From Faecalibacterium sp. An122 (GTDB lineage Bacteria > Bacillota > Clostridia > Oscillospirales > Ruminococcaceae): 33,778 bases of DNA. The stretch spans positions 1-33,778 of the forward strand of contig NZ_NFLL01000027.1 in NCBI RefSeq assembly GCF_002160895.1. The letters are read 5' to 3'. The translations under genes were made by a program, and so were the position numbers. Each line of letters begins with the position of its first letter. Within the stretch, counting starts at the first letter, position 1. Shown one piece after another: positions 5,264-29,127 of the stretch. Under the pieces are notes generated by a model. That model was given only the letters and a program-made list of their open reading frames with translations, did not search any database and was not told the DNA's origin.

Positions 5264-5295
5264 AGGCTCAAACCAACCCAAAGGAAGTTTTGCCT

Positions 5296-6968: not shown

Positions 6969-7140
6969 AATCGAAACCCACCTGGTCCGCGGCTGCGCTC
7001 CCTCGGCCGGGGCGCGGGTGGTATGGCGATGCGAAACAGTCCAGGCTGTGCCTGGTCTTTCATTTTTGTAAGAACTGCGCAAGGAAACCCGATACACTCC
7101 GGGCCGCCGATCCCTTACAATGGAGCCGGAGGTGAACGAG
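6969..7140 (+). promoter_or_regulatory. Probable regulated promoter region of the BceAB-like transporter
   Basis: This 172-bp gap separates the sensor genes from the transporter genes, where Bce-type systems usually carry a regulator-dependent promoter. It contains the perfect inverted repeat CCAGGC-TGT-GCCTGG (7041-7055), a GC-rich imperfect hairpin upstream (about 6976-7022) and weak -10-like hexamers TACACT (7093-7098) and TACAAT (7116-7121). No good -35 is present, as expected for an activated promoter. The assignment is inferred from position. Confidence 0.4.
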
Positions 7141-7908
7141 ATGAAAGAAATACTCAAACTGGAACACATCCAGAAAATCTACGGCAATGGAGGCAGCATC
7201 ACCAAAGCCATCCGGGATATCAGCTTCGCGGTGGAGGAAGGGGAGTTTGTGGGGATCATGGGGGCGTCGGGGTCAGGCAAGACCACCCTGCTCAACTGCA
7301 TCTCCACCATAGATGCCGTCAGCGCCGGCCACATTTACCTGGACGGCCAGGACGTCACCGCAATCAAACCCGGAGATCTGGCCCGGTTCCGCCGGGAAAA
7401 GCTGGGTTTTGTCTTTCAGGATTTCAATTTGCTGGACACATTGACCATCGGGGAGAACATCGCCCTGGTGCTGGCCATCAACAAAACCCCGGCCCATCAG
7501 GTGGAGCCGCAGGTCCAGGCCATGGCCCAGAGGCTGAACATCCAGGGGATTCTGGAAAAATATCCCTATCAGGTGTCGGGAGGACAGCGGCAGCGGTGCG
7601 CCTGCGCCCGGGCGCTGATCCATGGGCCCCGGCTGCTGCTGGCGGATGAGCCCACCGGCGCCCTGGACAGCCATTCGGCCCAGATGCTTCTGACTACCTT
7701 TGAGGGAATCCACCGCCAGCTGGGTGCCACCATCCTGATGGTGACCCATGACGCCTTTACCGCCAGCTATGCCCAGCGGATTCTGTTTTTGCGGGATGGG
7801 GAAATCTTCACCGAGCTGCGGCGGGGCGGCCAGACCCGCGGGGCCTTCTTTGAGAAGATTCTGCAGGTGCTGACCATGCTGGGAGGAGGCGGGACGGATG
7901 TACGCTAA
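7141..7908 (+). CDS. ABC transporter ATPase (BceA-like)
   Basis: The 255-residue ATPase has all ABC motifs: Walker A GASGSGKT (41-48), Q-loop Q93, signature VSGGQRQR (145-152), Walker B LLLADE (165-170) and switch H203. It is most similar to the BceA/LolD/MacB class that powers peptide detoxification or lipoprotein release rather than solute uptake. The ATG at 7141 lies 6 bp after GGAGGTG. The last codons overlap the permease start by 11 bp. It should work with the permease and signal to the upstream kinase. Confidence 0.95.
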   Translation: MKEILKLEHIQKIYGNGGSITKAIRDISFAVEEGEFVGIMGASGSGKTTLLNCISTIDAVSAGHIYLDGQDVTAIKPGDLARFRREKLGFVFQDFNLLDTLTIGENIALVLAINKTPAHQVEPQVQAMAQRLNIQGILEKYPYQVSGGQRQRCACARALIHGPRLLLADEPTGALDSHSAQMLLTTFEGIHRQLGATILMVTHDAFTASYAQRILFLRDGEIFTELRRGGQTRGAFFEKILQVLTMLGGGGTDVR

Positions 7909-10111
7909 ACTGATTCTCCGCAGCGCCCGGCGCTCGGCCCGGGATTACCTGATTTATCTGGTCACCATGACCCTCTGCGTCGCCTTGTTCTATGCGTTTT
8001 TGTCGGTGTCCAGCCGGTTTTATAAGCCGGATATCGGGGTGGAGTACGACTTCACCCTCCTCAGCGGCGGGATGAAAATGGCCATCTGCGCCGTGACTCT
8101 GCTGCTGTTGTTCCTGATCCGGTTTGTGAACCACTATATGCTCCGCAGCCGCCAAAAGGAATTCGCCCTGGAGGCCATTCTGGGGATGGACCAGCGGACC
8201 ATTGCCGGGCTGTTTTTCGCCGAAACCCTGCTGATGGGCGGGGTGTCGGTGGTGCTGGGCATCGGCCTGGGGGCGGTATGCTCCCAGTTCATCACCGCCC
8301 TGCTGCTGACCAGTTACGGCCAGCCCTATCGGCCGGCGTGGACCTTGTTCCCGGATACCGTCCTCTGGACGGTGGGCTTTTTCCTGCTGAGCTTTCTGGC
8401 GGTGGGACTGTTCCAGACCCGGGCCATCCGCCGGACCCGCATCCTCTCGATGCTGACCGCCGGCCGTGAAAACGAAGCCCCTCTCACCCAAAGCCGCTGG
8501 ATGCAGGGGGTGGCCGTCCTGTATCTGGCGCTTGCGGCGGTCATGACGGTTCAAGCCGGCCGGATGCTGTATTTTTATGGGGACAGCCGGTTCCCGGCGC
8601 CGGTGCAGGTCATGTTCTGGGCCAATATTCTGGCCCCGGCGGGGCTGCTGGCCTGGACGGCGGTCTGGGCTGTGCGCCGCCGGAAAGGGGACTTTCCGGT
8701 TCTGGTGCTGGGCCTGACGGCGGGGGCGCTTGTCTGCATCCTGGCGGCGGCCAGTGTGCCGGTGACCCAGCGCCGGTATATGCTGGCGTTTGGGGAGGGC
8801 GGGGTCAGCCAGGCCCTGACTGCTCTGCTGGTCCACCTGCTTTTCCTGCTCTGCGGGGTGATCTGGCTGGCCAGCACCCTGCTGGTCTGGCGCAAAGAGC
8901 GCAGCGCTGCCTGCCGCTATCAGGGCACCAACCTGTTCTTTTTCGGCCAGATGATTTCCAAGCTCCGCACCACCAGCAAGACCATGAGCCTGGTGAGCAT
9001 CACCCTGGTGCTGTCCATCTTTCTCTTCATGGCGGCCCCGGTGCTGGTGGGCTGGGCCGACGGCTATCTGGAAGCCCGGTCGATGTACGATATCCAGATC
9101 TACTCCCGCTACAACAACGTCTACCACGAGGCCGATCTGCCCCGGGACGGCTATCAGGCGGTGACCGCGTTTCTCTCGGAAAAAGGAATCGAAACCGCCG
9201 CAGACCGGACCTTCAGCCTCTATCTGCCCCGGCGGGAGGACTTTCACCAGAGGGTGAAATACGACTTTCCTGCGGCGGCGATTTCCCTCAGCGACTACAA
9301 CGCCCTGCGGACCATGCTGGGCCTTGAGCCGGTGGAGCTGGCGGAGGGGGAGTTTACCACCCAGTGGCAGACCATTGCCTCGGAGGAGGAACGGGAACAG
9401 TTTCTCGCCGAACACCCCACTGTTTCCACCGACGCCGGCGTCCTGACCCTGGCGGAACAGGCCTGGCATGACGACCCGATGGGGGAGACCCTCTACAACA
9501 GCTACACCGACGTGGTGTATGTGTTCCCGGACAGCGTCTGTCAGCAGCTCTTGCCGGTGATGCGCTGCCGGTACAGCATGACGGCCCAGCCCCTGGCCTA
9601 TGAGACAGCCCGGGCCCTGGAACAGTTTTTTATTGACCATTACCCCGAACAGGCCCCCGGCGGGGTGAATTATTCCATTCGGCTGCGGACCCTGCAGGTC
9701 AACAGCACCCGGGCCGGCAACTTTGTGTTGCAGGCGGCCATGATTTATGGAGCGGTGGTGCTGATGGTGATTTGCCTGACGGTTTTGTCCCTGCAGCAGC
9801 TGCTGGATGCCGGGCAGTACCGGTATCGCTTCTCGGTGCTGCGGAAGCTGGGCGTCGGGGAAAAAGAGATCGGGCGGCTGGTGGTGCGGCAGCTGGGCTT
9901 CTGGTTCGGACTGCCGGTGGGGGCGGCGGCCCTGGCAGGAGGCGCAGTGGTGGGCTGCTTTGTCCTGGTGGTGCAGGCCGAGATCGGCGCTTACATCGGC
10001 TTTGGCGCCCTGGCGGTACAGCTGGGCATCACGGCGGCGGTTCTGACCCTCTTGCTGGGATGTTATTTTGTCAGCACCTGGGCCATGTTCCGCCGGGCAA
10101 TCGAAGCCTGA
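7898..10111 (+). CDS. FtsX-type ABC permease (BceB-like)
   Basis: The 737-residue permease has an N-terminal helix (about 16-38), an FtsX-like membrane block (about 60-180), further helices to about residue 390, a large extracytoplasmic domain (about 395-610) between later helices, and a terminal three-helix block. Ten helices with one large loop is the BceB plan, in which the loop binds the peptide antibiotic or its lipid II-cycle target. The ATG at 7898 lies behind GGGAGGAGG and overlaps the ATPase gene. A bidirectional terminator follows. The specificity cannot be predicted. Confidence 0.92.
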   Translation: MYAKLILRSARRSARDYLIYLVTMTLCVALFYAFLSVSSRFYKPDIGVEYDFTLLSGGMKMAICAVTLLLLFLIRFVNHYMLRSRQKEFALEAILGMDQRTIAGLFFAETLLMGGVSVVLGIGLGAVCSQFITALLLTSYGQPYRPAWTLFPDTVLWTVGFFLLSFLAVGLFQTRAIRRTRILSMLTAGRENEAPLTQSRWMQGVAVLYLALAAVMTVQAGRMLYFYGDSRFPAPVQVMFWANILAPAGLLAWTAVWAVRRRKGDFPVLVLGLTAGALVCILAAASVPVTQRRYMLAFGEGGVSQALTALLVHLLFLLCGVIWLASTLLVWRKERSAACRYQGTNLFFFGQMISKLRTTSKTMSLVSITLVLSIFLFMAAPVLVGWADGYLEARSMYDIQIYSRYNNVYHEADLPRDGYQAVTAFLSEKGIETAADRTFSLYLPRREDFHQRVKYDFPAAAISLSDYNALRTMLGLEPVELAEGEFTTQWQTIASEEEREQFLAEHPTVSTDAGVLTLAEQAWHDDPMGETLYNSYTDVVYVFPDSVCQQLLPVMRCRYSMTAQPLAYETARALEQFFIDHYPEQAPGGVNYSIRLRTLQVNSTRAGNFVLQAAMIYGAVVLMVICLTVLSLQQLLDAGQYRYRFSVLRKLGVGEKEIGRLVVRQLGFWFGLPVGAAALAGGAVVGCFVLVVQAEIGAYIGFGALAVQLGITAAVLTLLLGCYFVSTWAMFRRAIEA

Positions 10112-16285: not shown

Positions 16286-16576
16286 TTACAGGCCCATCAG
16301 GTTATTGAGGAAATTCTGGCCGGCGCTCAGGGCCCCGCCGATGAAGCTCTTGCCGGCGTCCACCGAGCTGTCAATGGCGGAATCCACTCCGCCGAAGATG
16401 CTCAGAATGCCCCGGGCTGCAATGCAGCCCACCACCAGCAGGGCGGCGGCGCCGCCCACCGCGATGACAGCCTTGACGGCGGTCTCGGCGGCAGTGCCGC
16501 CGTCGGTGTACATCATCTCTTCCTCGGTCATGAGGGTGCAGCTGGCGGGAAGTTTCATGGTCTCTTTTGCGTTCAT
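16286..16576 (-). CDS. Double-glycine leader peptide (bacteriocin-like precursor)
   Basis: The 96-residue precursor has a 27-residue acidic leader ending in EEEMMYTDGG, the double-glycine pattern cut by C39-peptidase ABC exporters. The 69-residue core starting at T28 is small-residue-rich and hydrophobic (AVIAVGGAAALLVVGCIAARG), then amphipathic with spaced glycines (GKSFIGGALSAG), resembling class II bacteriocins. The core has one Cys, so no disulfide within the peptide. The ATG at 16576 follows AAAAGGAG; an internal ATG at residue 7 lacks its own site. It is the last gene of a three-gene run (with 16635-17006 and 17034-17309). No exporter or protease lies nearby. An export-tagged signal or membrane-active peptide is inferred. 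Confidence 0.72.
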   Translation of the reverse strand: MNAKETMKLPASCTLMTEEEMMYTDGGTAAETAVKAVIAVGGAAALLVVGCIAARGILSIFGGVDSAIDSSVDAGKSFIGGALSAGQNFLNNLMGL

Positions 16577-16634
16577 GGTTGGTTTCTCCTTTTCAATTTA
16601 CTGTATAACTGGCTTTTTCAGCGCGAAACAAGGT

Positions 16635-17006
16635 TTAATCTTTCAGACCCCTGGTCAGAGGGATCAGCATCAGCAGGGCCACAATCCCCATCAGGCCCAC
16701 CACAATGCCGGGCACCATCAGCTCGAACACCATGGAAAGGCACATCCCGACCCCCAGCAGCAGGGCGCCCACGACCGCCACCAGGATGGTGCCCAGGGTC
16801 TTGCCGTCCAGATGAACCGGCTGCTTGCCCTCCATCCGGCGCCAGATCACCAGGGCCGCCAGCAGCACCACCATCCCGATGACCCCGCAGATCACCCCCT
16901 GGCGGAACATCCCCCAGTCCTCAATCAGGGCCATGCACATGCCCAGTGCAAAGAACACGGTGCCGATGGTGCCAAGGATCATGGCTATAAAATTGCTCTT
17001 TTTCAT
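16635..17006 (-). CDS. Internally duplicated four-helix membrane protein
   Basis: The 123-residue protein has four transmembrane helices in two similar halves: FALGMCMALIEDWGMFRQG followed by VIGMVVLLAALVIWR, and LGVGMCLSMVFELMVPG followed by LMGIVALLMLIPLTR, joined by a short polar loop. No function is known; I recall similar proteins in gut Firmicutes beside two-component systems, which I cannot verify here. The ATG at 17006 has CAGGAGG upstream, 27 bp after the AYKK-repeat gene. Position directly before the double-glycine peptide makes an immunity or partner role possible but unproven. Confidence 0.75.
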   Translation of the reverse strand: MKKSNFIAMILGTIGTVFFALGMCMALIEDWGMFRQGVICGVIGMVVLLAALVIWRRMEGKQPVHLDGKTLGTILVAVVGALLLGVGMCLSMVFELMVPGIVVGLMGIVALLMLIPLTRGLKD

Positions 17007-17033
17007 GTTGGATTCCTCCTGTCAGGTGTTGGG

Positions 17034-17309
17034 TCAGTCGGCCTTGGGGCCGGACGGGGCGTCGGTTTTTTCGAGGAACGCGTCCACAAAGGCGTTCTCC
17101 ACTTTTTTGTAGGCTCCCACGACGCCGCCCTCGATCTTGCTGTAGGCATTCACAGCCTGCTGGGCCGCAGGACCGGTTTTCAGGCTGTAGCCGGAGGGGC
17201 TGCCGGGATTTTCTTCCAGGAACTTTTCGGTAAAGGCCTGTTCAGTTTTCTGGTAGGCGTCCATGACTTTTTTGCCCAGCTTGCCGGGCTTCAGATGATA
17301 TTCTGCCAT
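17034..17309 (-). CDS. Short AYKK-repeat helical protein
   Basis: The 91-residue protein has no signal peptide and is built from degenerate helical repeats: DAYQKTEQAFTEKFLEE (about 17-33), NAYSKIEGGV (about 54-63) and GAYKKVENAFVDAFLEK (about 65-81), following the pattern AYxKxExxFxxxFLE. The repeats should form amphipathic helices. I do not know a function. The ATG at 17309 lies 8 bp after AAAGGAGG. It is the first gene of the operon ending in the double-glycine peptide, and its promoter carries the motif also found before the response regulator at 20292. Confidence 0.75.
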   Translation of the reverse strand: MAEYHLKPGKLGKKVMDAYQKTEQAFTEKFLEENPGSPSGYSLKTGPAAQQAVNAYSKIEGGVVGAYKKVENAFVDAFLEKTDAPSGPKAD

Positions 17310-17362
17310 CGCGTTGGTCCTCCTTTGGATGTTTGGATGGGTTTTCGCTGTTTGCAAGAGAG

Positions 17363-17409
17363 ATTTTACTCGCACAACATGGCGGTTTGGTTGGAGTATT
17401 GTTTGAGAA
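17363..17409 (-). promoter_or_regulatory. Candidate response-regulator-dependent promoter of the small-peptide operon
   Basis: On the minus strand a TAAAAT -10 box lies at 17368-17363 with no usable -35. Exactly 20 bp upstream is the motif that reads, on the plus strand, GGTTGGAG-TATT-GTTTGAGAA (17389-17409). It matches 19 of 21 bases of the motif before the response regulator (20407-20427), at the same distance from the -10. GGAG and TGAG fall in a direct repeat with 11-bp period, the usual layout for OmpR-type activators. Confidence 0.72.
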
Positions 17410-17419
17410 AGATTAATTT

Positions 17420-17908
17420 TCAGACCGGGTTGCGCTGGAGGCGGACCAGCTGGCTGCTGGCCAGCAGTTCCCGGCACAGGTGGTTGGGCAGATAGAGCTG
17501 TGCCCGCCGGGCCAGAGGGAAGGCGGCGGATTGTTTCAGCACTTCCGCCACAAACTGGGAGCAGAAATAGTGCCGGCGCCAGAGGAAGGGAATCCGCAGC
17601 AGACAGCACACCACCCCCAGCCGGGTGTAGCGGTATTCGGTCCGCCGCCGCTGGAAGGTCTCGATCCGGGCCTGGATGTCCTGATAGGCCTGGTCCGACA
17701 CCGCCAGCACGCAGCTGAGGCTCTGTTCCACGCCGCGGCGGCGGTGTTTTTCCAGGGTTTCCTCGCAGAATCCCCGGTAGTTGAAGCTGTAATAAACCCC
17801 TCCGCCCAGGCCCAGGGAAGCGTGGGTGTAGCCGTGGCCTGCAACGTGGTAGACGAAACTGGAAATCCGGTCGGAATACCGGGTCAATAAAACGGTGATT
17901 TCTTTCAT
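17420..17908 (-). CDS. Permuted papain-like (YiiX/NlpC-P60 related) hydrolase
   Basis: The 162-residue protein has no signal peptide. H29 in GYTHASLGL lies ahead of C116 in HYFCSQFVAEVL, the His-then-Cys order of the circularly permuted NlpC/P60 proteins (YiiX/YaeF type). Such enzymes are thiol hydrolases or acyltransferases acting on amide or acyl bonds; the substrate here is unknown. The region between is basic (RRRTEYRYTR). The ATG at 17908 follows ACAGGAGGCAGGAAG. It lies between the two-component operon and the small-peptide operon on the same strand, so it may belong to the same regulon. Confidence 0.75.
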   Translation of the reverse strand: MKEITVLLTRYSDRISSFVYHVAGHGYTHASLGLGGGVYYSFNYRGFCEETLEKHRRRGVEQSLSCVLAVSDQAYQDIQARIETFQRRRTEYRYTRLGVVCCLLRIPFLWRRHYFCSQFVAEVLKQSAAFPLARRAQLYLPNHLCRELLASSQLVRLQRNPV

Positions 17909-17940
17909 CTTCCTGCCTCCTGTCTGCAATCACTGGGGAC

Positions 17941-17983
17941 AGGATACCAGGAGAAGGTTTCGGTTTTGTTTGGGACAGGTTTG
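17941..17983 (-). promoter_or_regulatory. Possible third site of the shared motif
   Basis: On the plus strand GTTTG (17968-17972) and GTTTG (17979-17983) repeat with 11-bp spacing, ending 21 bp from a TATCCT -10-like box (minus strand, 17946-17941) before the papain-like gene. It is less similar than the other two copies. Confidence 0.4.
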
Positions 17984-17992
17984 TTTTGGATG

Positions 17993-18023
17993 AAAAAAGG
18001 ACAGCCGGAAAACCGGCTGTCCT
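17993..18023 (-). terminator. Terminator of the two-component operon
   Basis: AGGACAGCCGG (17998-18008) and CCGGCTGTCCT (18013-18023) form a perfect 11-bp stem with a 4-base loop. On the minus strand it is followed by TTTTTTCATCC. Confidence 0.9.
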
Positions 18024-18035
18024 GCATCCGCCTGC

Positions 18036-18557
18036 CTACAGCAGCGAATGGCCTTTTTCGCAGATTTCGTAGATTTCGTCCAGTTTGGCCTCAATGAAGG
18101 GCTGTACCTGCCGGGCTTTTTTGTCCATGGCGGCCCGGTATAGGAAAAAAGGTGCAATCCACCCCCCAAAGCCGGGGATGGCCAGCAGCACGCAGAGCCA
18201 AACGATGGGCGGGTCGGCCACCACCGCGAAGGTGGCCCCGGCCATGAACACCGTTCCCAGCAGGCCGGTCAGCAGGGCGCAGAGATTGGCGGCAGTGGTT
18301 TTGGAGCGCTCCAGCGCGGCAATTTCCGCCAGATCGGCCTCAAAGTGCCGCTGCAGCCGGGTCAGCTCGGCTTTGTTGAGGATGCGGCGGTCCCGCTTGA
18401 GTTTCAGCAGGACTTTGCCCCTGGCCGCCTGGGGCGGGAAGTTTTCGTCCTGCTGCCAGCCAAAGCTCTGGTAGCAGTCCAGATAAAAGGAGGCTTTGCT
18501 GTCCGGGACGGAGGTTTCCATATATTCATAGGCCCGGTAGTTCTTGTCGCTGTTCAT
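18036..18557 (-). CDS. Conserved membrane protein, third gene of the two-component operon
   Basis: The 173-residue protein has a soluble N-terminal part containing KLKRDRRILNKAELTRLQRHFEA, two adjacent transmembrane helices (about 90-112 and 117-137) and a soluble C-terminal tail ending YEICEKGHSLL. The N-part is charged and helical, so a cytosolic helical hairpin around a two-helix anchor is likely. Its ATG overlaps the kinase stop as ATGA and has GCAGGAGGCGC upstream, so it is translationally coupled to the kinase. An accessory role in signalling is inferred from this coupling only; no characterised family is recognised. Confidence 0.78.
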   Translation of the reverse strand: MNSDKNYRAYEYMETSVPDSKASFYLDCYQSFGWQQDENFPPQAARGKVLLKLKRDRRILNKAELTRLQRHFEADLAEIAALERSKTTAANLCALLTGLLGTVFMAGATFAVVADPPIVWLCVLLAIPGFGGWIAPFFLYRAAMDKKARQVQPFIEAKLDEIYEICEKGHSLL

Positions 18558-19624
18558 TCCTGCGCCTCCTGCCCGTCGGGCCGGGGCAGCCGGACCGTAA
18601 AGAGCGAGCCTTTTCCCGGCTGGCTTTCCACCGCAATTTCCCCGCCGGAAAGCTCCAGAATCCGCTTCACCAGCGCCAGACCCAGGCCATTGCCCTGGGT
18701 GGCGTGACTGGTGTCGCCCTGATAAAATTTGTCGAAGATATGGCGGATGGTTTCGGCTGTCATGCCGCAGCCGCTGTCCTGCACTGAGACTTCCACCCAA
18801 TTGTCCAGGGTCTTTTGGGTGAGGGTGATGGTCCCGACCTCGGGGGTGAATTTGATGGCGTTGGACAGGAGATTGTTCCACACCAGCTCGGTGAGGCCCG
18901 GGTCTGCATAGACCGCGGCGCTGTCCTCCAGATCCGCCTCGAAATCCAGATTCTTTTTCTCCCACTGGTCCTCAAACTGGACCGCACACCCGCACACCTG
19001 GGCGCAGACGTCGAACACCGAGGGCGCCGGGCGGATGGTCTGTTTTTCCAGCTTGTTCAGCTTGAGCATGTTTTGGATGAGGTCGGCCAGCCGGCGGGTG
19101 GCGTCCTGGATGCTGTCCACCTCTTTTTGGTCCCGGGAGGAGAGGGAAGGGCTCTTTTTCAGCAGATCGGCGCTGCCCGAAATCACCGCCAGCGGCGACT
19201 TGAACTCATGGGACACATCTGAGAAGAAATCGGTTTTCAGGGTCTCAATGCTTCCCAGCTCCTCCACCATCTTGTTGAAGTCCAGAAACATCCGGTCCAG
19301 ATAATCGGTTTTGTCGGGGGTATGGATGGGGGCCAGATACACCGAAAAGTCCCCCTTGGCCACTCTCTGGGTGGCGTCGGCCAGCCGCAGCATGGGTTCC
19401 TCGTAGGTGATCCGGATCCGATACCGGGTAAAGACGGTGAGTCCGCCGGCCACGGCGGCCCAGTAGAAGATGGGGGACAGGGTCCGGGTCAGACTGCCCC
19501 AGCCCCATTGTTCAGCCCCCAGCAGCAGGCCGCTGTGGATGCCCGACATCAGCAGCAGAACCCCCAGATATACAAAGAACAGCCACATGGGGAAGAGGCT
19601 TTCGTCCTTGGTACGCTTGTTCAT
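18554..19624 (-). CDS. Sensor histidine kinase
   Basis: The 356-residue kinase has two transmembrane helices (about 13-35 and 48-67) with a short outer loop of about 12 residues, a HAMP-like linker (about 68-124), a HisKA domain with H139 in DVSHEFKSPL, and an ATPase domain with NNLLSNAIKF, DSGCGM and GNGLGLALVKRI. The tiny outer loop implies sensing of a membrane event or partner protein rather than a bulky ligand. The ATG overlaps the response-regulator stop (ATGA). It should phosphorylate the regulator encoded at 19621-20292. Confidence 0.93.
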   Translation of the reverse strand: MNKRTKDESLFPMWLFFVYLGVLLLMSGIHSGLLLGAEQWGWGSLTRTLSPIFYWAAVAGGLTVFTRYRIRITYEEPMLRLADATQRVAKGDFSVYLAPIHTPDKTDYLDRMFLDFNKMVEELGSIETLKTDFFSDVSHEFKSPLAVISGSADLLKKSPSLSSRDQKEVDSIQDATRRLADLIQNMLKLNKLEKQTIRPAPSVFDVCAQVCGCAVQFEDQWEKKNLDFEADLEDSAAVYADPGLTELVWNNLLSNAIKFTPEVGTITLTQKTLDNWVEVSVQDSGCGMTAETIRHIFDKFYQGDTSHATQGNGLGLALVKRILELSGGEIAVESQPGKGSLFTVRLPRPDGQEAQE

Positions 19625-20292
19625 AACAGCACCGCCTTGTAGCCCAGACCCCGCACCGTCTTGATCTCGAAGCCGTCGCAGGATGAAAACTTGTCCCGCA
19701 GCTTGGTGATGTAGATGTCCACCGCCCGCAGGCTGGCGTCGGTGTCGGCGTCCCAGAATTCGTCCATCAGCTGGGCCCGGGTGAAGGTCTTTTTGGGGTA
19801 GGAGAGGAGCTTGTAGAGGATATTGAATTCCCGCTTGGAGACGGGGATTTCCTCCCCGTCGATCTCGGCGGTCATCCCGTCGGCATCCAGCACCAGATTG
19901 CCCAACGTCAGCTTGCGTTCCGCCTCGATGTTGGCCCGCCGCAGCAGGGCCCGCACCCGCATTTCCAGCTCGGCCAGCTCCACCGGCTTCACCATGTAGT
20001 CGTCTATCCCCAGCTGGAAGCCTTTCTGCTTGGAGGGCAGATCGTCCTTGGCCGACATGAAGAGGATGGGAATGTGCTTGTTGAGCTGCCGCACCGACCG
20101 GGCGAAGGCAAAGCCGTCCACCCCCGGCATCATGATGTCCGAGACGATCAGGTCGTAGGGCCGGTCGTTGAGAGCCTCATAAGCGGCCTGGGCGTTCAGG
20201 ACGCCGGTGGCCTCAAAGCCGCAGTCGTTGAGGTAAACACAGACTGTTTTGTTTAATTTGGGGTCGTCGTCCACTATCAGAATATGAATCAT
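19621..20292 (-). CDS. OmpR-type response regulator
   Basis: The 223-residue protein has a receiver domain (acidic D8-D9-D10, phospho-acceptor D52 in IVSDIMMPG, S80, K102 in YMVKPVEL) and a winged-helix domain (about 128-223) with VSKREFNILYKLLSYP and YITKLRDKF. The ATG at 20292 has AAAGGAAG upstream; the longer in-frame reading to 20382 overlaps the -10 box and is rejected. Its own promoter and that of the small-peptide operon share a distinctive motif, so it probably autoactivates and controls that operon. Confidence 0.93.
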   Translation of the reverse strand: MIHILIVDDDPKLNKTVCVYLNDCGFEATGVLNAQAAYEALNDRPYDLIVSDIMMPGVDGFAFARSVRQLNKHIPILFMSAKDDLPSKQKGFQLGIDDYMVKPVELAELEMRVRALLRRANIEAERKLTLGNLVLDADGMTAEIDGEEIPVSKREFNILYKLLSYPKKTFTRAQLMDEFWDADTDASLRAVDIYITKLRDKFSSCDGFEIKTVRGLGYKAVLL

Positions 20293-20380
20293 GCTTTTCT
20301 TCCTTTCACCCCGGAGTGGTTTTCTGTTCAGCATAAGAATAACAGATTTTTCCTGCTGGCGGTACTGCTTTTTCAAAATC

Positions 20381-20427
20381 ATTATAAGGCGGAAACGTTG
20401 CGCAAAGTTTGGAGTTTTGTTTGAGAA
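20381..20427 (-). promoter_or_regulatory. Promoter and activator motif of the two-component operon
   Basis: On the minus strand TATAAT lies at 20386-20381, without a recognisable -35 at 17 bp. Twenty bp upstream is the motif reading on the plus strand GTTTGGAG-TTTT-GTTTGAGAA (20407-20427), shared with 17389-17409. Confidence 0.75.
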
Positions 20428-20732
20428 TTGTTAAGGACCAGCAGCTGGTCTAAGAAAATGAAAGGCAGGGCTTTCCCGCCGGGGGAGGGGTACGGTTAAA
20501 GGGAACGCTACGCACCCATGCCGATTGGCTGCGAGGTCTTGCTGGATGCCGCCAATAAAAAGGTGATGCTGCTTGAATCTCCGCTGAACACCATACTGTT
20601 GTGACTGGCGGCAAAAATCAGAGTTTCGGGCACTTCCAGCTTGAGCCTGCCTGGACCGGGCCGGCGGGGAAAACAAAGTGCTTCTGTGCAAAACGATGAA
20701 CTTTTTTGTGGGGTTTGTCCAGGCTGCAGCGG
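20428..20732. other. Non-coding stretch with a palindrome
   Basis: About 300 bases separate the two divergent units. The palindrome GACCAGC-A-GCTGGTC lies at 20436-20450, next to the response-regulator motif. A 28-codon reading at 20518-20604 (MPIGCEVLLDAANKKV...) looks protein-like but has no ribosome binding site and may be a relic. Nothing else is apparent. Confidence 0.5.
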
Positions 20733-20824: not shown

Positions 20825-22348
20825 TTGAAAAAGATTCTTGCAGGGTGTCTGGCTGCCGCGCTTGTTTTGCAGCTGGCCGCCTGCGGCAAGGGCCAGCCGG
20901 CCCAATCGGCGGCCGACAGCAAACCGGCCTCCTCGGCTTCTTCTGCATCTTCGGCCGTTTCAGAAGCTGAAAGCAAACCCGAAAGCCAGCCTGCCTCCAG
21001 CGCCGCGTCGGAGGAGGAAAAGGCTGCATCCTCCCAGCCGGAGCAGGACGAAGCCTCATCGGAGGCATCGTCGGAGGCGTCGTCGGTCCAGAGCCTTCCG
21101 GCTGATACGGTGGCCATGAAAGGCGGCCCGGCCCAGGTGGACGCCATGGTCCTGCCGCTGGGCAAGAAAGTCCAGGTGGAAGTGAATGGTTCCCGCCGGT
21201 GGTTCGCCTTTACTACCGGCAGCGCGGCGGACTATGAAGTCTGGCTGGCGCCGGGAGGACAGTACTATCGAACCATCGGCTTTGGCATTTACAACCGTCG
21301 GGGAGAACTGGTGTGGGAGTCGAACACCAACGGGGACGGCTCGGTCACCGTCCGGCAGGTTCAGCTTTCGCCCGATACGCCCTACTTTGCCACCGTGGCC
21401 CAGTCGGAGGGGAACCATGGTGCTCTGACCTTCCGGCTGTCCTCCCTGACCGAGACGGAGGACGCATCCTCCGGCGCCTCCTCGGAAGAGACCGCCGGAT
21501 CTGCTGCCCAGTCCCAGGCGGAGGGAATTCTGGATCTGGAAGGCGGTTCGGCCCAGGGCGGAGCCACGGCGTTCCAGCTGGAACAGATGGTCCGGGCCAA
21601 GGTGAACGGCTCCCGCAAGTGGTACTCCTTTGCCACCGGGGACGGCACCGACTATGAAATCCTGCTGGCTCCTGAAGGCCAATATTACAGGACCATTGGA
21701 TTCAGCCTGTACAATGAACTGGGAGAACAGGTGTGGGAGTCGGGAACCAACGGAGATGGTTCGGTCACCATCCGGCAGATTCAGCTTTCCCCCAACACCA
21801 CCTACTACGGCGTTGTTTCACAGAAGGCAGGCAATGACGGAAACCTGATTTTCCGGGTTTCTGCCCACTTTACCCCGCAGGATACGGCCACCGAGGTGGA
21901 ACGGGAACCCGAGACGGTGTCCGAGCTGATCTTTGAGGAACCCTTCTCGCTGGATGAAACCCAGATCATGTTTGTGTCCAACAAGGCGATCTTTGTGGAT
22001 GAGGAGGCCGCCAAGGCTGCTCTGGCTCCGGTGGCCGAGGTGATTCTGGCTCACCCGGATCACCCCGTTCTGCTGGCGGGAACCACCGCCACCGACGGCC
22101 AACAGGAATCCTGCGTGCGGCTGTCCAGCCAGCGGGCCGAAGCGGTCAAGAACCTGCTGGTCAGCGCCTATGGCGTCCCGGAAGATCAGCTGCTGACGGT
22201 GGGACTGGGCTATGCGGCGGACCCCTTCCCCCGGGGACAGGACCGGGACAGCAGCGGAAACTTTGTGGAGTCGGAAGCAGTCAAGAACCGCCGTGTGGTG
22301 GTGCTGGATGCCAATGATCCCACGGCCCAGGAAATTCTCAATGCCTGA
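20825..22348 (+). CDS. Lipoprotein with duplicated domain and OmpA-like C-terminus
   Basis: The 507-residue protein starts at TTG 20825, set by AAAAGGAGGA 7 bp upstream; no ATG fits. A signal peptide ends in the lipobox LAAC (C20), followed by a Ser/Ala/Glu linker (about 24-90). Two similar domains follow (about 115-207 and 255-347, period 140 residues), each with VNGSRxWxxFxTG, [12 protein letters not shown] and TNGDGSVT; a Ser-rich spacer lies between. The C-terminal part (about 376-495) is OmpA-like, with [19 protein letters not shown] and NRRVVVL, the fold that binds peptidoglycan. It is predicted to be anchored in the membrane and to touch the wall. The duplicated domain is unassigned; a carbohydrate- or ligand-binding role is a guess. 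Confidence 0.85.
21167..21865 (+). repeat. In-gene tandem domain duplication
   Basis: The segments 21167-21445 and 21587-21865 encode the two similar domains of the lipoprotein, 420 bp apart. Their proteins align without gaps through GQYYRTIGF and TNGDGSVT, and many codons are shared, so the duplication is fairly recent or under conversion. Confidence 0.75.
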
Positions 22349-24021: not shown

Positions 24022-24050
24022 TTGCCTTTTCCCGCCTCTTCCGCTATACT
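24022..24050 (+). promoter_or_regulatory. Promoter of the second sensor operon
   Basis: TTGCCT (24022-24027), a 17-bp spacer, TATACT (24045-24050), 40 bp before the ATG. Confidence 0.75.
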
Positions 24051-24090
24051 AGAGCAAAACCGTGAATCTCAATCAAAGAAGGATATTTCC

Positions 24091-24774
24091 ATGGAATCGA
24101 TTCTTTTGCTGGAGGATGATCCGGCCCTGGGCCGGGGCATCGGGATGGCGCTGGAAGCGCCGGAACGGGCCGTGATCCGGGCTGGCACCTTGCAGGAAAG
24201 CCGGGAACGGCTTGCCCGGCAGCGCTTTGACCTGCTGATCCTGGACATCAATCTGCCGGACGGCAGCGGGCTTGAGCTGCTGCGTCAGCTGCGGGCGGCG
24301 GGGGAGAACACCCCGGTCATCCTTTTGACCGCCAACGACCTGGAACTGGACGAAGTCACCGGGCTGGAAGCCGGGGCGGATGACTACATCACCAAGCCCT
24401 TTTCCCTGGCGGTGCTGCGGGCCCGGGTGGCGGCCCAGCTGCGCCGGAATGCGCCGAAGGTTCCCGTATCCTTCCAGCTGGGCCCCTTTTCCTTTGACTT
24501 CGAGGGGATGGAGTTTCGCCGGGGAGGGGAAAAGGTGGAGCTCTCCAAAACCGAACAGAAGCTGCTGCGGGTTTTGGTGGAGAACCGGGGCCGCACTGTT
24601 CCGCGGTCGCTGTTGGCGGAAAAGGTCTGGCCCGACGGGGCCGGGGCGGTGGAGCCCAACGCCCTCTCGGTCACGGTAAAGCGGCTGCGGGCCAAGCTGG
24701 AGGTCGACCCCGCAAAGCCCGAATATCTCAAAACGGTGTATGGCATCGGCTACACCTGGGCGGTGAACCCATGA
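24091..24774 (+). CDS. OmpR-type response regulator (VncR-like)
   Basis: The 227-residue protein has a receiver domain (E8-D9-D10, phospho-acceptor D52 in ILDINLPDG, T80, K102 in YITKPF) and a winged-helix domain (about 130-227) with LSKTEQKLLRVLVENRG and VKRLRAKL. The ATG at 24091 follows AAAGAAGG; the in-frame start at 24022 lies inside the promoter and is rejected. The stop overlaps the kinase ATG. With the downstream ATPase and FtsX permease it forms a sensor/transporter module. Confidence 0.93.
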   Translation: MESILLLEDDPALGRGIGMALEAPERAVIRAGTLQESRERLARQRFDLLILDINLPDGSGLELLRQLRAAGENTPVILLTANDLELDEVTGLEAGADDYITKPFSLAVLRARVAAQLRRNAPKVPVSFQLGPFSFDFEGMEFRRGGEKVELSKTEQKLLRVLVENRGRTVPRSLLAEKVWPDGAGAVEPNALSVTVKRLRAKLEVDPAKPEYLKTVYGIGYTWAVNP

Positions 24775-25670
24775 TCGGGTGGATTGCTGCGGGTGTGGCG
24801 CTGGCGCTGGCCGCCGGGGTCGTCCTGGTGTCGCGCTGGCGGCAGGCCCGGCTGCTGAGGCGGCTGGACGAGATGTTTACCGCTGCCATGGAGGGCGCAT
24901 TTTCGGAGAGCAGTTTTGACGAGACCCGGCTTTCCGCTCTGGAAAGCCGCCTGGCCCGGTATCTGGCGGCCAGTGCCCTCTCGGCCCGAAATCTAAAGGC
25001 CCAGAAAGACCAGATCAGCGCACTGATTTCGGACATTTCCCACCAGACCCGCACCCCCGTGGCTAATCTCCGGCTCTATGCCCAGCTGCTGGAAGAACAG
25101 CCTCTCACGGCGCAGCAGGCCGAATGCGTGCAGGCCATCTCAGGCCAGGCCGAAAAGCTGGAGACCCTGATCCAAGCGCTGGTCAAAACCTCCAGGCTGG
25201 AAACCGGGATCCTGGCCCTCCACCCTGCGCCCGGGCCCATCGCACCGGTGGTGCAGCGGGCCGCGGCCCAGTACGCCCCCAAAGCCGAGGCAAAACAGAT
25301 CCGCCTGACGGTGGGTGTGACCGAGGCAAGGGCCCTTTTCGACCCCAAGTGGACTGAGGAGGCCCTCTGCAACCTGCTGGACAATGCGGTGAAATACACC
25401 CCCGCAGGCGGGGCGGTAAGGGTGGAGGTTCGGCCCTATGAGATGTTCACGGCGGTCTGTGTCCGGGACACCGGCCCCGGCATCCCCGAAGAAGAACAGG
25501 CCAGGATCTTCGGCCGGTTTTACCGGGCCCCCGGAGCCTGGCAGACGGAAGGGGTGGGCATCGGTTTGTATCTGACCCGGCAGATCGCTGAAAAGCAGGG
25601 CGGCTACATCAAGCTGGAAAGCGAACCGGGCACAGGGAGCTGTTTTGCCCTGTTCCTGCCCCGGGAATAA
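24771..25670 (+). CDS. Sensor histidine kinase (VncS-like)
   Basis: The 299-residue kinase has one clear transmembrane helix at the N-terminus (about 3-21), then a short linker directly into the HisKA domain with H91 in SDISHQTRTP, a motif context resembling pneumococcal VncS. The ATPase domain carries LCNLLDNAVKY, DTGPGIP and GVGIGLYLTRQI. With no extracellular sensor domain, it probably reads its transporter or the membrane. Its start overlaps the regulator stop (ATGA), and the ABC genes follow after 107 bp. Confidence 0.92.
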   Translation: MIGWIAAGVALALAAGVVLVSRWRQARLLRRLDEMFTAAMEGAFSESSFDETRLSALESRLARYLAASALSARNLKAQKDQISALISDISHQTRTPVANLRLYAQLLEEQPLTAQQAECVQAISGQAEKLETLIQALVKTSRLETGILALHPAPGPIAPVVQRAAAQYAPKAEAKQIRLTVGVTEARALFDPKWTEEALCNLLDNAVKYTPAGGAVRVEVRPYEMFTAVCVRDTGPGIPEEEQARIFGRFYRAPGAWQTEGVGIGLYLTRQIAEKQGGYIKLESEPGTGSCFALFLPRE

Positions 25671-25724
25671 GGATTCTTTCAAAACTGTCATCTTCTCGAA
25701 AGGGCAGGGAAAGATTTCTGTGGT

Positions 25725-25758
25725 AAAGTCTGTATTGTCGAAGGATGATACAGACTTT
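25725..25758 (+). promoter_or_regulatory. Long inverted repeat before the ABC transporter genes
   Basis: AAAGTCTGTAT (25725-25735) and ATACAGACTTT (25748-25758) are perfect 11-bp arms with a 12-bp spacer, followed by TC and TTTTGG. It lies between the kinase and the ATPase and could be a regulator site or a weak AT-rich terminator/attenuator. Confidence 0.6.
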
Positions 25759-25777
25759 TCTTTTGGAGGAATGCTGC

Positions 25778-26446
25778 ATGACGATTTTGGAAACCAGAGA
25801 CCTGAAAAAATACTACGGCTCCGGGAATACCCAGGTAAAGGCGCTGGACGGGGTGAACCTCACGGTGGAACAGGGGGAATTTGTGGCCATTGTGGGCACT
25901 TCCGGCTCGGGCAAATCCACCCTGCTCCACATGCTGGGCGGGCTGGACCGCCCCACCTCGGGCACGGTCAGGGTGGACGGCAGAGAGATCTTCGGGCTGA
26001 AAGATGAGGCGCTGACCATCTTCCGCCGCCGGAAGATCGGCTTTGTGTTCCAGGCCTATAACCTTGTCCCGGTGCTCAGCGTCTGGGAGAACATCATCCT
26101 GCCCATCCAGCTGGACGGCCGGGCGGTGGATGAGGGCTTTGTCCGGGAGGTGGTGTCCACCCTGGGCCTGGAAAAGAAGCTGCAAAGCCTGCCAGGTCAG
26201 CTTTCCGGCGGCCAGCAGCAGCGGGTGGCCATCGCCCGGGCCCTGGCGGCCAAGCCTGCCATCCTGCTGGCGGACGAGCCCACCGGCAACCTGGATTCCA
26301 AGACCAGCCAGGACGTGCTGGGCCTGATGAAGGTCACCGGGCAGAAATTCGGCCAGACCATGGTGATGATTACCCACAACGAGGAAATTGCCCAGATGGC
26401 CGACCGGATTGTCCGGATCGAAGACGGCCGGATTGTGACGCGGTGA
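25778..26446 (+). CDS. ABC transporter ATPase (MacB/LolD type)
   Basis: The 222-residue ATPase carries Walker A GTSGSGKS (40-47), Q92, signature LSGGQQQR (142-149), Walker B ILLADE (162-167) and H200. It belongs to the class paired with FtsX-type permeases that move or sense hydrophobic peptides and lipids. The ATG at 25778 lies behind TTTTGGAGG; a nearby ATG at 25771 is out of frame. The permease follows 14 bp after its stop. Confidence 0.95.
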   Translation: MTILETRDLKKYYGSGNTQVKALDGVNLTVEQGEFVAIVGTSGSGKSTLLHMLGGLDRPTSGTVRVDGREIFGLKDEALTIFRRRKIGFVFQAYNLVPVLSVWENIILPIQLDGRAVDEGFVREVVSTLGLEKKLQSLPGQLSGGQQQRVAIARALAAKPAILLADEPTGNLDSKTSQDVLGLMKVTGQKFGQTMVMITHNEEIAQMADRIVRIEDGRIVTR

Positions 26447-26460
26447 GAGGGGGCGAAACC

Positions 26461-29127
26461 ATGAAGGTATCCAATCGGGGCTGCATCCGCCGGCTGAGCC
26501 TCCGGGCGCTTTGGGCGAACCGCACCCGGAACATGGTGGCGGTGCTGGCCATCGCGCTGACCGCGCTGCTTTTTACCAGCCTGTTCACCATCGCCCTGTC
26601 CATCAACGAGGGGATGCAGCAGAGCAACTTACGCCAGGCGGGCGGGTATGCCCACGGGAGTTTCAAATACCTCACCGAGGAAGAGTTCAGCCAGCTGAAA
26701 GAACACCCCCTGATTGAGGACTGGGGCCTGCGCCGTTTTGTGGGGATGCCCACCGGCGTTCCCTTCAACAAATCCCATGTGGAGGTGGGCTATTCCGACC
26801 CAAACGAAGCCCATTGGACCTACTGCGACCCGGTGGAGGGCCGCCTGCCCGCCGAGGGCACCGACGAAGCCGCCACCGACACCCATGTGCTGGAACTGCT
26901 GGGCATCACTCCGGAGCTGGGGGCGCAGTTCACCCTCACCTTTGAGGTGGACGGCCAGGAAACCACCCAGACCTTCACCCTCTGCGGCTGGTGGGAGTAC
27001 GACGAGGCGGTGGTGGCCAACCATGTGCTGATTCCCGAGAGCCGGGTAAATGCCATTTTGGAGGAGGTGGGGGTCACACCGCCGGGTACCGATGGGATGA
27101 CCGGCTCCTGGAACCTGGACGTGATGCTGAAACATGGCGCCCGGTCCATCGCCGCCGACCTGGGCCGGATTCTGGCGGACAATGGCTATCAGGACCAGGA
27201 CCCCGCCGCCCCGGGTTATATCGCCACCGGCGTCAACTGGGGCTACACCGGGGCCCAGTTGTCCAGCCAGATCGATCCGTCGGTGATTCTGACAATCCTG
27301 GTGATGCTGGCTCTGATCCTCTTCACCGGCTACCTGATTATTTACAACGTGTTTCAGATTTCGGTGGCGGGGGATATCCGGTTTTACGGCCTGCTGAAAA
27401 CCATCGGCACCACCCCGCGGCAGATCCGGCGGATCATCCGCATCCAGGCGCTGGTGCTCTCGGCGGCGGGCATCCCGGCGGGGCTTTTGCTGGGCTGGCT
27501 GCTGGGCGGGGTGCTGACCCCGGTCATCACGGCGCAGCTCAATGATGTGATTGGTACCGTATCGGTCAGCCCGGTGCTGTTTGGGGTTTCGGCACTCTTT
27601 GCCCTTGTCACCGTCCTGATCTCCTGCCGCCGCCCCGGCCGCCTGGCCGGAAAGGTGTCGCCGGTGGAGGCGGTGCGGTATACCGAGGGAAAAGCCTTCC
27701 GGCCCAAAGCCCGCCGGAAGGAAAAAGGGGTCTCCCTGGTGTCCATGGCCTGGGCCAATCTGGGCCGCAGCCGAGGCAAAACTGCCATCACCATAGTGTC
27801 TTTGTCCCTGGCGGTGGTGCTGCTGACTTTGACCGTTACCTTCACCGCCGGCTTTGACATGGACAAATACACCGCCCACTTCACCGCCACCGACTTCATC
27901 GTGGCAGATGCCGGCAAGCTGCAGGTGAGCACCACCGGCTTCAACAGCGGTATGGCGGTGGGGGAGGACGCCATCGCCGCCATCAACGCCCAGGGCGGTG
28001 TCGCCCAAAGCGCCCGGGTCTACGGCCAGAGCATGGGAATGCTGGAATTCATCCCGGAGGACTGGTTCCTTGCCAGGAACCGCCCCTATTATTCGGAGGA
28101 CTCCCTCCAGTGGCTGATAGACCACACTCAGCGCAATGACGCCGGGTTCCTGGCGGATTATGTCCAGCTCTGCGGCATGGAACCCTTTGCCCTGGACCAG
28201 CTGACGGTGCTGGAAGGGGACTTGGAGAAGCTGAAAGAGCCCGGCGGAAACTGGATTGCCGCCGTCTACCGGGAGGACGACTACGGAGATCCAGAAATGG
28301 ACAGCAACTGGGCCAAACTGGGAGATACAGTAACCGTCCGGTATGTGGAGAAATTTGAGTATTACGACAACGACACCGGCGAGGTGCTCCCGATAGAGCA
28401 GGTAGAGGCCGCCTATGCGGCAGGCCACAGCATCACTTCCTGCGCCAAGACCTACCGGGATGTGGACTATACGGTGTCCGCTCTGGTGACGGTGCCCAGA
28501 GCTCTGAGCTACCGCTACTACGGGGACGATGCCTTCATCCTCGACGACCAGACCTTCCTCCGGGACAGCGGCACCGCCGATGTGATGTACTACGCCTTCA
28601 ACACCACGGAGGAGGCCACCGCCGCCATGGAGGCTTTCCTCCAGGATTATACCGAAAATGTGAACCCCCAGATGGACTACGAGAGCAAAGCCACCTTTGC
28701 CGGGGAATTTGAGAGCGTGCGGGGGATGTTCCTGCTTTTGGGCGGGGCGCTGAGCTTTATTGTGGGGCTGGTAGGGGTGCTGAATTTCGCAAACGCCATC
28801 CTCACCGGCATCACCGCCCGCCGCCGGGAGCTGGCGGTGCTCCAGTCCATCGGAATGACCACCTGCCAGCTGCGGACCATGCTGGCCATCGAGGGCCTGC
28901 TCTACACCGCCGGAGCTGCGGCGCTGGCGCTGGGCATCATCCTGGTGAGCGCCCCCTTCCTGGGGCCTGTCCTCAACCGGATGATCTGGTTCTTTACGTA
29001 TCGATTTACCCTCTGGCCCATCGGGGTGGTGCTGCCCCTGTTTGCGGTGCTGGGCATCGGGATCCCGATGCTGACCAGCCGGGCAGTCCAGCACATCCCG
29101 GTGGTGGAGCGGCTGCGGCAGGAGTGA
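26461..29127 (+). CDS. Large FtsX-type ABC permease
   Basis: The 888-residue permease has an N-terminal helix (about 24-46), a first outer domain (about 50-270), a three-helix FtsX block (about 272-400, with GLLKTIGTTPRQIRR), a second entry helix (about 440-462), a second outer domain (about 465-750) and a final FtsX block (about 755-875, with VLQSIGMTTCQLRTM). This double-FtsX plan resembles peptide-resistance and Vnc-linked transporters rather than MacB alone. I chose ATG 26461, preceded by AGAGGGGGCG, over the in-frame GTG at 26443 that overlaps the ATPase gene. The substrate is unknown. Confidence 0.92.
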   Translation: MKVSNRGCIRRLSLRALWANRTRNMVAVLAIALTALLFTSLFTIALSINEGMQQSNLRQAGGYAHGSFKYLTEEEFSQLKEHPLIEDWGLRRFVGMPTGVPFNKSHVEVGYSDPNEAHWTYCDPVEGRLPAEGTDEAATDTHVLELLGITPELGAQFTLTFEVDGQETTQTFTLCGWWEYDEAVVANHVLIPESRVNAILEEVGVTPPGTDGMTGSWNLDVMLKHGARSIAADLGRILADNGYQDQDPAAPGYIATGVNWGYTGAQLSSQIDPSVILTILVMLALILFTGYLIIYNVFQISVAGDIRFYGLLKTIGTTPRQIRRIIRIQALVLSAAGIPAGLLLGWLLGGVLTPVITAQLNDVIGTVSVSPVLFGVSALFALVTVLISCRRPGRLAGKVSPVEAVRYTEGKAFRPKARRKEKGVSLVSMAWANLGRSRGKTAITIVSLSLAVVLLTLTVTFTAGFDMDKYTAHFTATDFIVADAGKLQVSTTGFNSGMAVGEDAIAAINAQGGVAQSARVYGQSMGMLEFIPEDWFLARNRPYYSEDSLQWLIDHTQRNDAGFLADYVQLCGMEPFALDQLTVLEGDLEKLKEPGGNWIAAVYREDDYGDPEMDSNWAKLGDTVTVRYVEKFEYYDNDTGEVLPIEQVEAAYAAGHSITSCAKTYRDVDYTVSALVTVPRALSYRYYGDDAFILDDQTFLRDSGTADVMYYAFNTTEEATAAMEAFLQDYTENVNPQMDYESKATFAGEFESVRGMFLLLGGALSFIVGLVGVLNFANAILTGITARRRELAVLQSIGMTTCQLRTMLAIEGLLYTAGAAALALGIILVSAPFLGPVLNRMIWFFTYRFTLWPIGVVLPLFAVLGIGIPMLTSRAVQHIPVVERLRQE

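Follow-up and report, generated by a model that had tools for sequence, protein, structure and literature searches.

Does the two-component system on a contig of Faecalibacterium sp. An122 switch on its own operon and a neighbouring cluster of small genes through one shared promoter element, and if so, what would the response consist of? The DNA analysed here is the stretch of 33,778 nucleotides at positions 1-33,778 of contig NZ_NFLL01000027.1 (assembly GCF_002160895.1; hereafter the window), and the feature in question occupies positions 16286-20427, where genes for a response regulator, a histidine kinase and the membrane protein P0002 are accompanied by those for a papain-like protein, an 11-residue-repeat protein (YKK), a membrane protein with four transmembrane (TM) helices (TM4) and a double-glycine peptide. 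A preliminary description of this DNA had proposed that all of these form one regulon whose output is a secreted or membrane-active peptide. Autoregulation and the regulon are strongly supported by the promoter comparisons presented below, and the proposed regulon is very probably real. The shared site, the autoregulation and the sites before the YKK operon and the papain-like gene stood, while the peptide as the conserved output did not.

The promoter template in the window and in related loci

The segments 20407-20427, before the regulator gene, and 17389-17409, before the YKK gene, are identical at 19/21 positions, as had been claimed, and at both the -10 box lies at the 20-bp distance noted earlier (TATAAT at 20381-20386 and TAAAAT at 17363-17368). 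At three mismatches or fewer the 21-bp pattern occurs twice in the window, which was equalled in 1/100 shuffles, and in the whole genome of 3.26 Mb only these two sites lie within one mismatch of it. When three mismatches were allowed over the genome, four extra matches appeared, which is the chance level (6 in total vs 11 for the reversed control pattern). The 20-bp gap between the 21-mer and the -10 box is not empty, as it holds the third and fourth hexamers of an array; these are degenerate in the window and conserved in other species.

Regulator orthologues were gathered by similarity to the regulator protein alone, and the best 80 loci (68-97% identical) were combined with the window to give 81 loci. 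The preliminary description had named conservation of the motif upstream of orthologous clusters as the test that could refute it; the test was run, and the motif is conserved. The motif string can be recognised before the regulator gene in loci where this is the first of its operon, and also before YKK genes of other families. A test for three AAACA words spaced 11 bp apart gave 13/15 or more matches in 19/40 regulator upstream regions (0.12 expected from shuffles) and in 21/37 YKK upstream regions (0.48 expected), and in 0/41 upstream regions in which MEM300, a polytopic protein family recurring beside the regulator, lies directly before it. The upstream regions of 801 other genes gave 54 cases at 13 or more matches vs 1.1 expected; since they hold further sites, they are not a clean control. 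Many of the 40 best among them precede genes for MEM300, TM4, NAD-dependent epimerases or papain-like proteins, which are further candidate targets.

A 54-column matrix was trained on both strands of whole loci other than the window and its three closest kin, and comprises 136 sites from 77 loci; it was seeded with a consensus written after the upstream regions had been viewed and is therefore not blind, and the window gave no site to it. At least one site was present in 73/77 training loci. The consensus of the 136 sites, TTAATAaTTCtgAAACAAAACTCAAACAATaCacAAACAAAaatccGgTATaaT, describes a 54-bp template of four hexamers (TTAAYA followed by three CAAACA-like words) at 11-bp steps, a spacing of 8-9 bp and a -10 box, with no -35 box. 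Above 30 bits there are 126 sites; a set of 100 of them, taken mostly from the top of the scores, aligns without gaps, with T2, A4 and T54 invariant. Among lags from 3 to 17, column self-similarity is 0.86 at lag 11 and 0.48-0.58 at all others, and together with the four-hexamer template this bears out the 11-bp direct-repeat layout of OmpR-type activators that had been suggested. Columns 26-31, the position at which a -35 box is expected, read ACAATa. The earlier remark that a -35 is missing was likewise upheld, as a sigma-70 scan returned no promoter at any of the three sites in the window and no -35 is conserved in the 136 sites. Labelled heuristically by the nearest open frame, the genes behind these sites are MEM300 (31), YKK (30), the regulator (21), TM4 (17) and others (26), with no called gene in 11 cases. 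NAD-dependent epimerase-like genes directly behind the motif were also seen near the regulator locus in L032, L035, L064, L065, L091 and L104. In L067, L070 and L098 the motif precedes genes resembling ABC (ATP-binding cassette) transporter ATPases, which lie downstream of the regulator and the kinase.

Scanning of the window with this held-out matrix gave three sites above 6 bits and no others, namely those of the regulator operon (20381-20434, 39.1 bits), the YKK operon (17363-17416, 32.2 bits) and the papain-like gene (17941-17994, 17.1 bits), all on the minus strand, while the best of 60 shuffled windows scored -4.1 bits. The first of these sites has its four hexamers at 11-bp steps, with one step of 12, and the -10 box TATAAT; the second has TAAAAT. 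R1, a sequence-only model of the motif, gave six matches at E ≤10 over the whole genome, the top two being the promoters of the regulator (28.3 bits, E 5.7e-6) and of YKK (20.7 bits, E 0.0014). The weaker site that had been placed before the papain-like gene fits the template and was matched by R1 at 12.7 bits, with E 0.0048 over the window and a weak 0.46 over the genome. The remaining R1 matches were one on C38 (E 0.033), one on C13 (E 0.35) and a stray one (E 9.8). The match at C38:10402-10440 was dropped as off template (-2.9 bits, no -10), and the site at C13:3711-3764 (L146) reaches 10.7 bits on the template and precedes a 27-residue peptide with one hydrophobic stretch. By eye, similar small hydrophobic peptides of 25-44 residues precede YKK in L036, L063, L077 and L079.

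Motif and regulator across genomes

Among 147 genomes of the order, 26 carry a regulator orthologue at 354 bits or more, and no other genome exceeds 257 bits. R1 matched at E ≤0.01 in 24/26 genomes with the orthologue vs 9/121 without it (p 5e-18), and in 23 of the 26 a site lies within 10 kb of the regulator. In both genomes missed by R1 (G139 and G203) the matrix finds sites of 24-33 bits, which precede YKK- or TM4-like frames. A similar result was obtained for 291 genomes of the class, where R1 at E 0.001 matched in 11/17 genomes with the orthologue vs 5/274 without it (p 2e-12); in these large genome sets the search scores only part of the candidates, under stricter filters, and the scored genomes may overlap the training loci, above all those exceeding 400 bits. 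Six loci picked from genomes with R1, TM4 or P0002 matches (L125, L127, L128, L132, L133 and L134) have regulators that are 62-66% identical, below any training locus, and sites were present in 6/6.

The motif is also associated with P0002 (16/18 vs 17/129 genomes, p 1.4e-10), and YKK and TM4 travel together, with both in 20 genomes, YKK alone in 7, a strong TM4 match alone in 4 and neither in 116 (p 3e-15). Over the order YKK is weakly associated with the regulator (9/27 vs 17/120, p 0.02). Eleven genomes without an identified orthologue supplied YKK-TM4 regions, and 0/11 of these have a site; a twelfth such region, also without a linked regulator, has a site, and its genome (G157) carries the orthologue on another contig. 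Taken together, the motif tracks the regulator and not the output genes, as expected if the regulator binds the motif. The regions L117-L124 and L129-L131 contain TM4-YKK modules, accompanied in 10/11 cases by a MEM300-like match, but no regulator and no motif, so that another control must exist there.

Regulator, kinase and linked proteins

All genes of the feature lie on the minus strand, apparently in three transcripts. The first comprises the regulator, the kinase and P0002 (20292-18036) and ends at an intrinsic terminator at 18023-17998 (11-pair stem with 8 GC, followed by a T-run), the second is the papain-like gene alone (17908-17420), and the third comprises YKK, TM4 and the double-glycine peptide (17309-16286) and ends at an intrinsic terminator at 16215-16185 (14-pair stem with 9 GC); the terminator scan overall gave 9 sites vs 5.9 in shuffles.

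The regulator (P0003, 223 aa, 19621-20292) consists of a receiver (PF00072, Response_reg, 91.1 bits, cut-off 30.2) and a winged helix (PF00486, Trans_reg_C, 69.1 bits, cut-off 26.2), which places it in the OmpR/PhoB family. Its best NCBIfam matches are PhoB models, far below their cut-offs (158.2 vs 296.2 and 167.7 vs 270). With PhoB/PhoP and their PHO boxes the system shares the receiver, the winged helix and tandem head-to-tail 11-nt direct repeats (PMC4415409), but the operator here is CAAACA/TTAAYA, with four hexamers at a fixed distance from the -10 box, and is not found at pstS-like genes. The kinase (P0004, 356 aa, 18554-19624), in which HATPase_c and HisKA exceed their cut-offs, follows the regulator in 80/81 loci and scores below the equivalog cut-offs for PhoR (171.5 vs 334.2) and PnpS (178.8 vs 400); unlike in PhoB-PhoR, it has no PhoR-like sensor part. 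A phosphate regulon was discarded on the sub-cut-off PhoB, PhoR and PnpS scores and the lack of a site at the pstS-like loci. An anti-phage defence reading was considered and rejected as well; in PADLOC, only the receiver part of the regulator and the ATPase part of the kinase were matched, and weakly so.

Intramembrane-sensing histidine kinases have two TM helices and an outer loop of less than about 25 residues. The kinase in the window is of this build, with TM cores at residues 10-26 and 49-65 and 22 residues between them (Kyte-Doolittle); the outer loop has a median of 19 residues in the 41/48 kinases with two predicted TM cores, the other 7 being without two cores. Two TM helices, a short outer loop, membrane-protein neighbours and occurrence in Firmicutes are shared with BceS, GraS and LiaS (PMC3023708; see also PMC10581149). 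In contrast to the Bce type, no ABC genes lie within 16286-20427 and the commonly linked set has no BceAB-type transporter, the partners being P0002, MEM300, TM4 and YKK, although in three loci (L067, L070 and L098) the kinase gene is followed by one for an ABC ATPase.

Over the 81 loci, MEM300 was found in 47, TM4 in 46, YKK in 38 (37 on the strand of the regulator) and the papain-like protein in 5. Among the scored members, neither these four families nor P0002 came up to a cut-off of Pfam. P0002 (173 aa, 18036-18557), a two-TM protein with an N-terminal alpha/beta domain encoded by the third gene of the operon, follows the kinase at +1.3 to +2.1 kb in 64/80 full-length calls under strict calling; its first profile drifted into TM4 via shared TM helices, and the count of 76/81 obtained with it is therefore loose. 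The 48-row alignment has 15 invariant columns, and AlphaFold2 predicts an alpha/beta domain and a long helical hairpin (mean predicted local distance difference test score, pLDDT, 88.7). DUF2207_C was matched below threshold in 18/48 members (best E 0.00038; five members at 16.2-18.9 bits, 33 needed). No Foldseek match under E 0.08 was obtained for the predicted fold against the PDB, and the VIA-align rows, PspA among them, were within the background for long helices. Sequence searches of the PDB with the P0002 alignment, the YKK alignment and the papain-like protein likewise gave nothing relevant. In L133:9750-12374 a P0002-like stretch lies inside an 875-aa open frame, a possible fusion, near another hybrid kinase-like frame.

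The YKK protein (P0001, 91 aa, 17034-17309) is built of 11-residue amphipathic repeats of the form VVGGYKKIEEG, which we take to resemble the repeats of synucleins or apolipoproteins. The hydrophobic moment of four of its segments is greatest at 97-98 degrees per residue, as for an 11-residue, three-turn helix, rather than at 100, and helices are predicted at residues 10-30 and 47-78 with low confidence (pLDDT 59.5). Binding of the protein to the membrane is somewhat more likely than not. Apart from one stray match in 35 members, Pfam returned nothing for this family, and in the genus it is patchy (7/30 genomes, G001-G030, at E ≤0.01). TM4 (P0006, 123 aa, 16635-17006; 26-row alignment, four TM cores) was weakly matched by DUF2157 in 3/26 members (best E 4.3e-5; cut-off 32.4 bits) and by eight other families in 1-4/26. 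The best Pfam match among three scanned MEM300 members was DUF3784 at 15 of 28.1 bits. The papain-like protein (P0005, 162 aa, 17420-17908), possibly a permuted cysteine-protease-like protein, belongs to no Pfam family, and the tentative papain label comes from an H..S and C..Q pattern.

The double-glycine leader peptide (P0007, 96 aa, 16286-16576, with the second Met as the likely start) lies after TM4 in all four of the 81 loci in which its family occurs, and these are confined to the Faecalibacterium-like lineage. Elsewhere in the same genome, locus L145 on contig C37 (475-7342) encodes a C39 peptidase-ABC exporter, two small proteins with double-glycine leaders, HlyD and proteins with Ig-like domains. 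From this gene context and from their sequence we assume that the two small proteins are MAM-like. Residues 7-27 of P0007 match residues 1-21 of one of them (L145:4466-4849) at 9/21 positions (E 4e-5 in a single comparison); the BLASTP alignment ends at the two glycines, and the mature parts do not align. The mam context of F. prausnitzii A2-165 matches such neighbours, and MAM leaders have glycines at positions 20 and 21, according to PMC8836110. P0007 thus shares with MAM of Faecalibacterium prausnitzii a 21-residue leader with the glycines at positions 20-21 (PMC8836110), and differs from it in its mature part, in the operon and in having a promoter of the regulon template. Export of P0007 by the peptidase-containing ABC transporter of the mam-like locus is conceivable, at somewhat less than even odds.

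Proposed mechanism, competing explanations and neighbouring genes

We propose that the response regulator (19621-20292) binds the four-hexamer, 11-bp array at the -35 position, ending 8-9 bp before the -10 box, and would switch on the papain-like gene, its own operon and that of YKK, TM4 and the peptide. Having almost no outer domain, the kinase would probably detect, within or through the membrane and together with P0002 and, in other species, MEM300, that the cytoplasmic membrane or the cell wall is disturbed. The core output would be directed at the membrane, with YKK as an amphipathic helix on the inner leaflet alongside TM4, and the Faecalibacterium-like lineage would have added to it a secreted peptide with a MAM-type leader. 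We estimate the probability of this explanation as a whole (regulator, four-hexamer array, three transcripts, membrane-directed output) at about 0.7. Its parts differ in strength. Binding of the array by the linked regulator is suggested so consistently by the comparisons that we regard it as very probable. Activation rather than repression is highly likely, because the -35 is missing and the distance to the -10 box is fixed. A role in envelope stress has about even odds; it is suggested because the kinase is short-looped and the putative targets are membrane and amphipathic proteins and, elsewhere, ABC transporter- and epimerase-like genes.

Several observations weigh against this explanation. 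The third and fourth hexamers are weak in the window, and two of its three sites have the third one displaced by 1 bp. Six of the 17 class genomes with the regulator have no R1 match; two of these have matrix sites of 24-34 bits, and the other four have none or sites of 3-10 bits, one being a 3.3-kb contig. R1 also matched where no orthologue was found, in nine order genomes and in five class genomes. Two of the class matches without a full-length orthologue were fetched; in the first the contig ends inside a regulator gene beside the site, and in the second the motif precedes TM4 with no regulator in 13 kb. Over the order YKK is not associated with the motif (7/27 vs 26/120, p 0.40), nor TM4 with the regulator (p 0.23), and the YKK-TM4 module also exists outside the regulon, without regulator and motif, in other lineages. 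Finally, searches with the predicted fold of P0002 were uninformative.

The claim that a secreted peptide is what the system puts out had to be given up: with the double-glycine peptide present in only 4/81 loci, it is a Faecalibacterium-like addition, and the conserved output consists of membrane proteins and an amphipathic repeat protein. The same numbers bear on the competing explanation that survives best, improbable as it is, namely a peptide-pheromone or bacteriocin system in which P0007 would act as signal or product, with the kinase as its receptor and TM4 as an immunity protein. The shared operon of peptide and TM4 and the C39 exporter elsewhere in the genome would fit such a system. 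However, the kinase is present in 80/81 loci and the site in 73/77 training loci, no exporter adjoins the peptide gene, and Bacteriocin_IIc scored 11.7 bits against P0007, below the Pfam cut-off of 27.1. Receptors of the AgrC/ComD type are polytopic, unlike this kinase with its two TM helices. Somewhat less probable still, the regulator might repress these promoters until a signal releases them; the template has the array ending near the -10 box, where it could occlude the polymerase, but no -35 is conserved at the expected spacing in the 136 sites, as for activator-dependent promoters. Least probable is that the array serves another regulator as operator, such as the phosphate-response PhoP or some OmpR-type protein encoded elsewhere, with the linked regulator as only one of its targets. 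PHO boxes are 11-nt direct repeats too (PMC4415409), and the best NCBIfam matches of the regulator are PhoB models. Against this explanation, the PhoB/PhoR models stay far below their cut-offs, the scanned surroundings, short of whole pst operons, of the two pstS-like loci of the genome (L113 and L114, both matched below the family cut-off) score at best -29.5 and -39.8 bits, and the motif follows the linked regulator across genomes.

The array has the layout known from PHO boxes and from further operators of the OmpR family (PMC4415409), so that activation by the linked regulator would be a known way of working. The operator, the regulon and the protein families appear undescribed in the literature searched, in which few subscription journals were represented. 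In the Lia and Psp stress responses (LiaI-LiaH, PspA) it is mainly a small membrane anchor and a soluble amphipathic protein that are induced. If our explanation is right, the present system would work alike; no sequence relation was seen, and the 11-residue repeats of YKK would seem to set it apart from the PspA fold. A bolder and rather doubtful version would see here an undescribed membrane-stress regulon of gut Clostridia with a synuclein-like, membrane-coating effector of 11-residue repeats and a membrane partner, rewired in Faecalibacterium to release a MAM-leader peptide on envelope attack. If true, it would tie envelope sensing to a secreted product that is possibly active on the host or on competitors. 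The template supplies an operator that can be tested for a two-component system present in Oscillospirales and Lachnospiraceae loci, and it would place four families unnamed by Pfam at cut-off (P0002, MEM300, TM4 and YKK) under one signal. Its promoters could serve as envelope-stress reporters in gut commensals, and it gives reason to ask whether the MAM-leader peptide is made on demand.

The window holds further genes of related kinds, all assigned by eye, so that three two-component systems lie on one 34-kb contig. A Bce-like module on the plus strand (5290-10111) consists of a regulator, a kinase, an ABC ATPase (7120-7908) and a large permease (7898-10111); the matrix scan of the window gave no template site above 6 bits near it. 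A third regulator-kinase pair at 24022-29127 is followed by an FtsX/MacB-like permease of 894 aa. Divergent from the regulator operon, 20825-22348 encodes a lipoprotein-like protein in which a Ser-rich linker is accompanied by two similar repeats and the C-terminus is OmpA-like.

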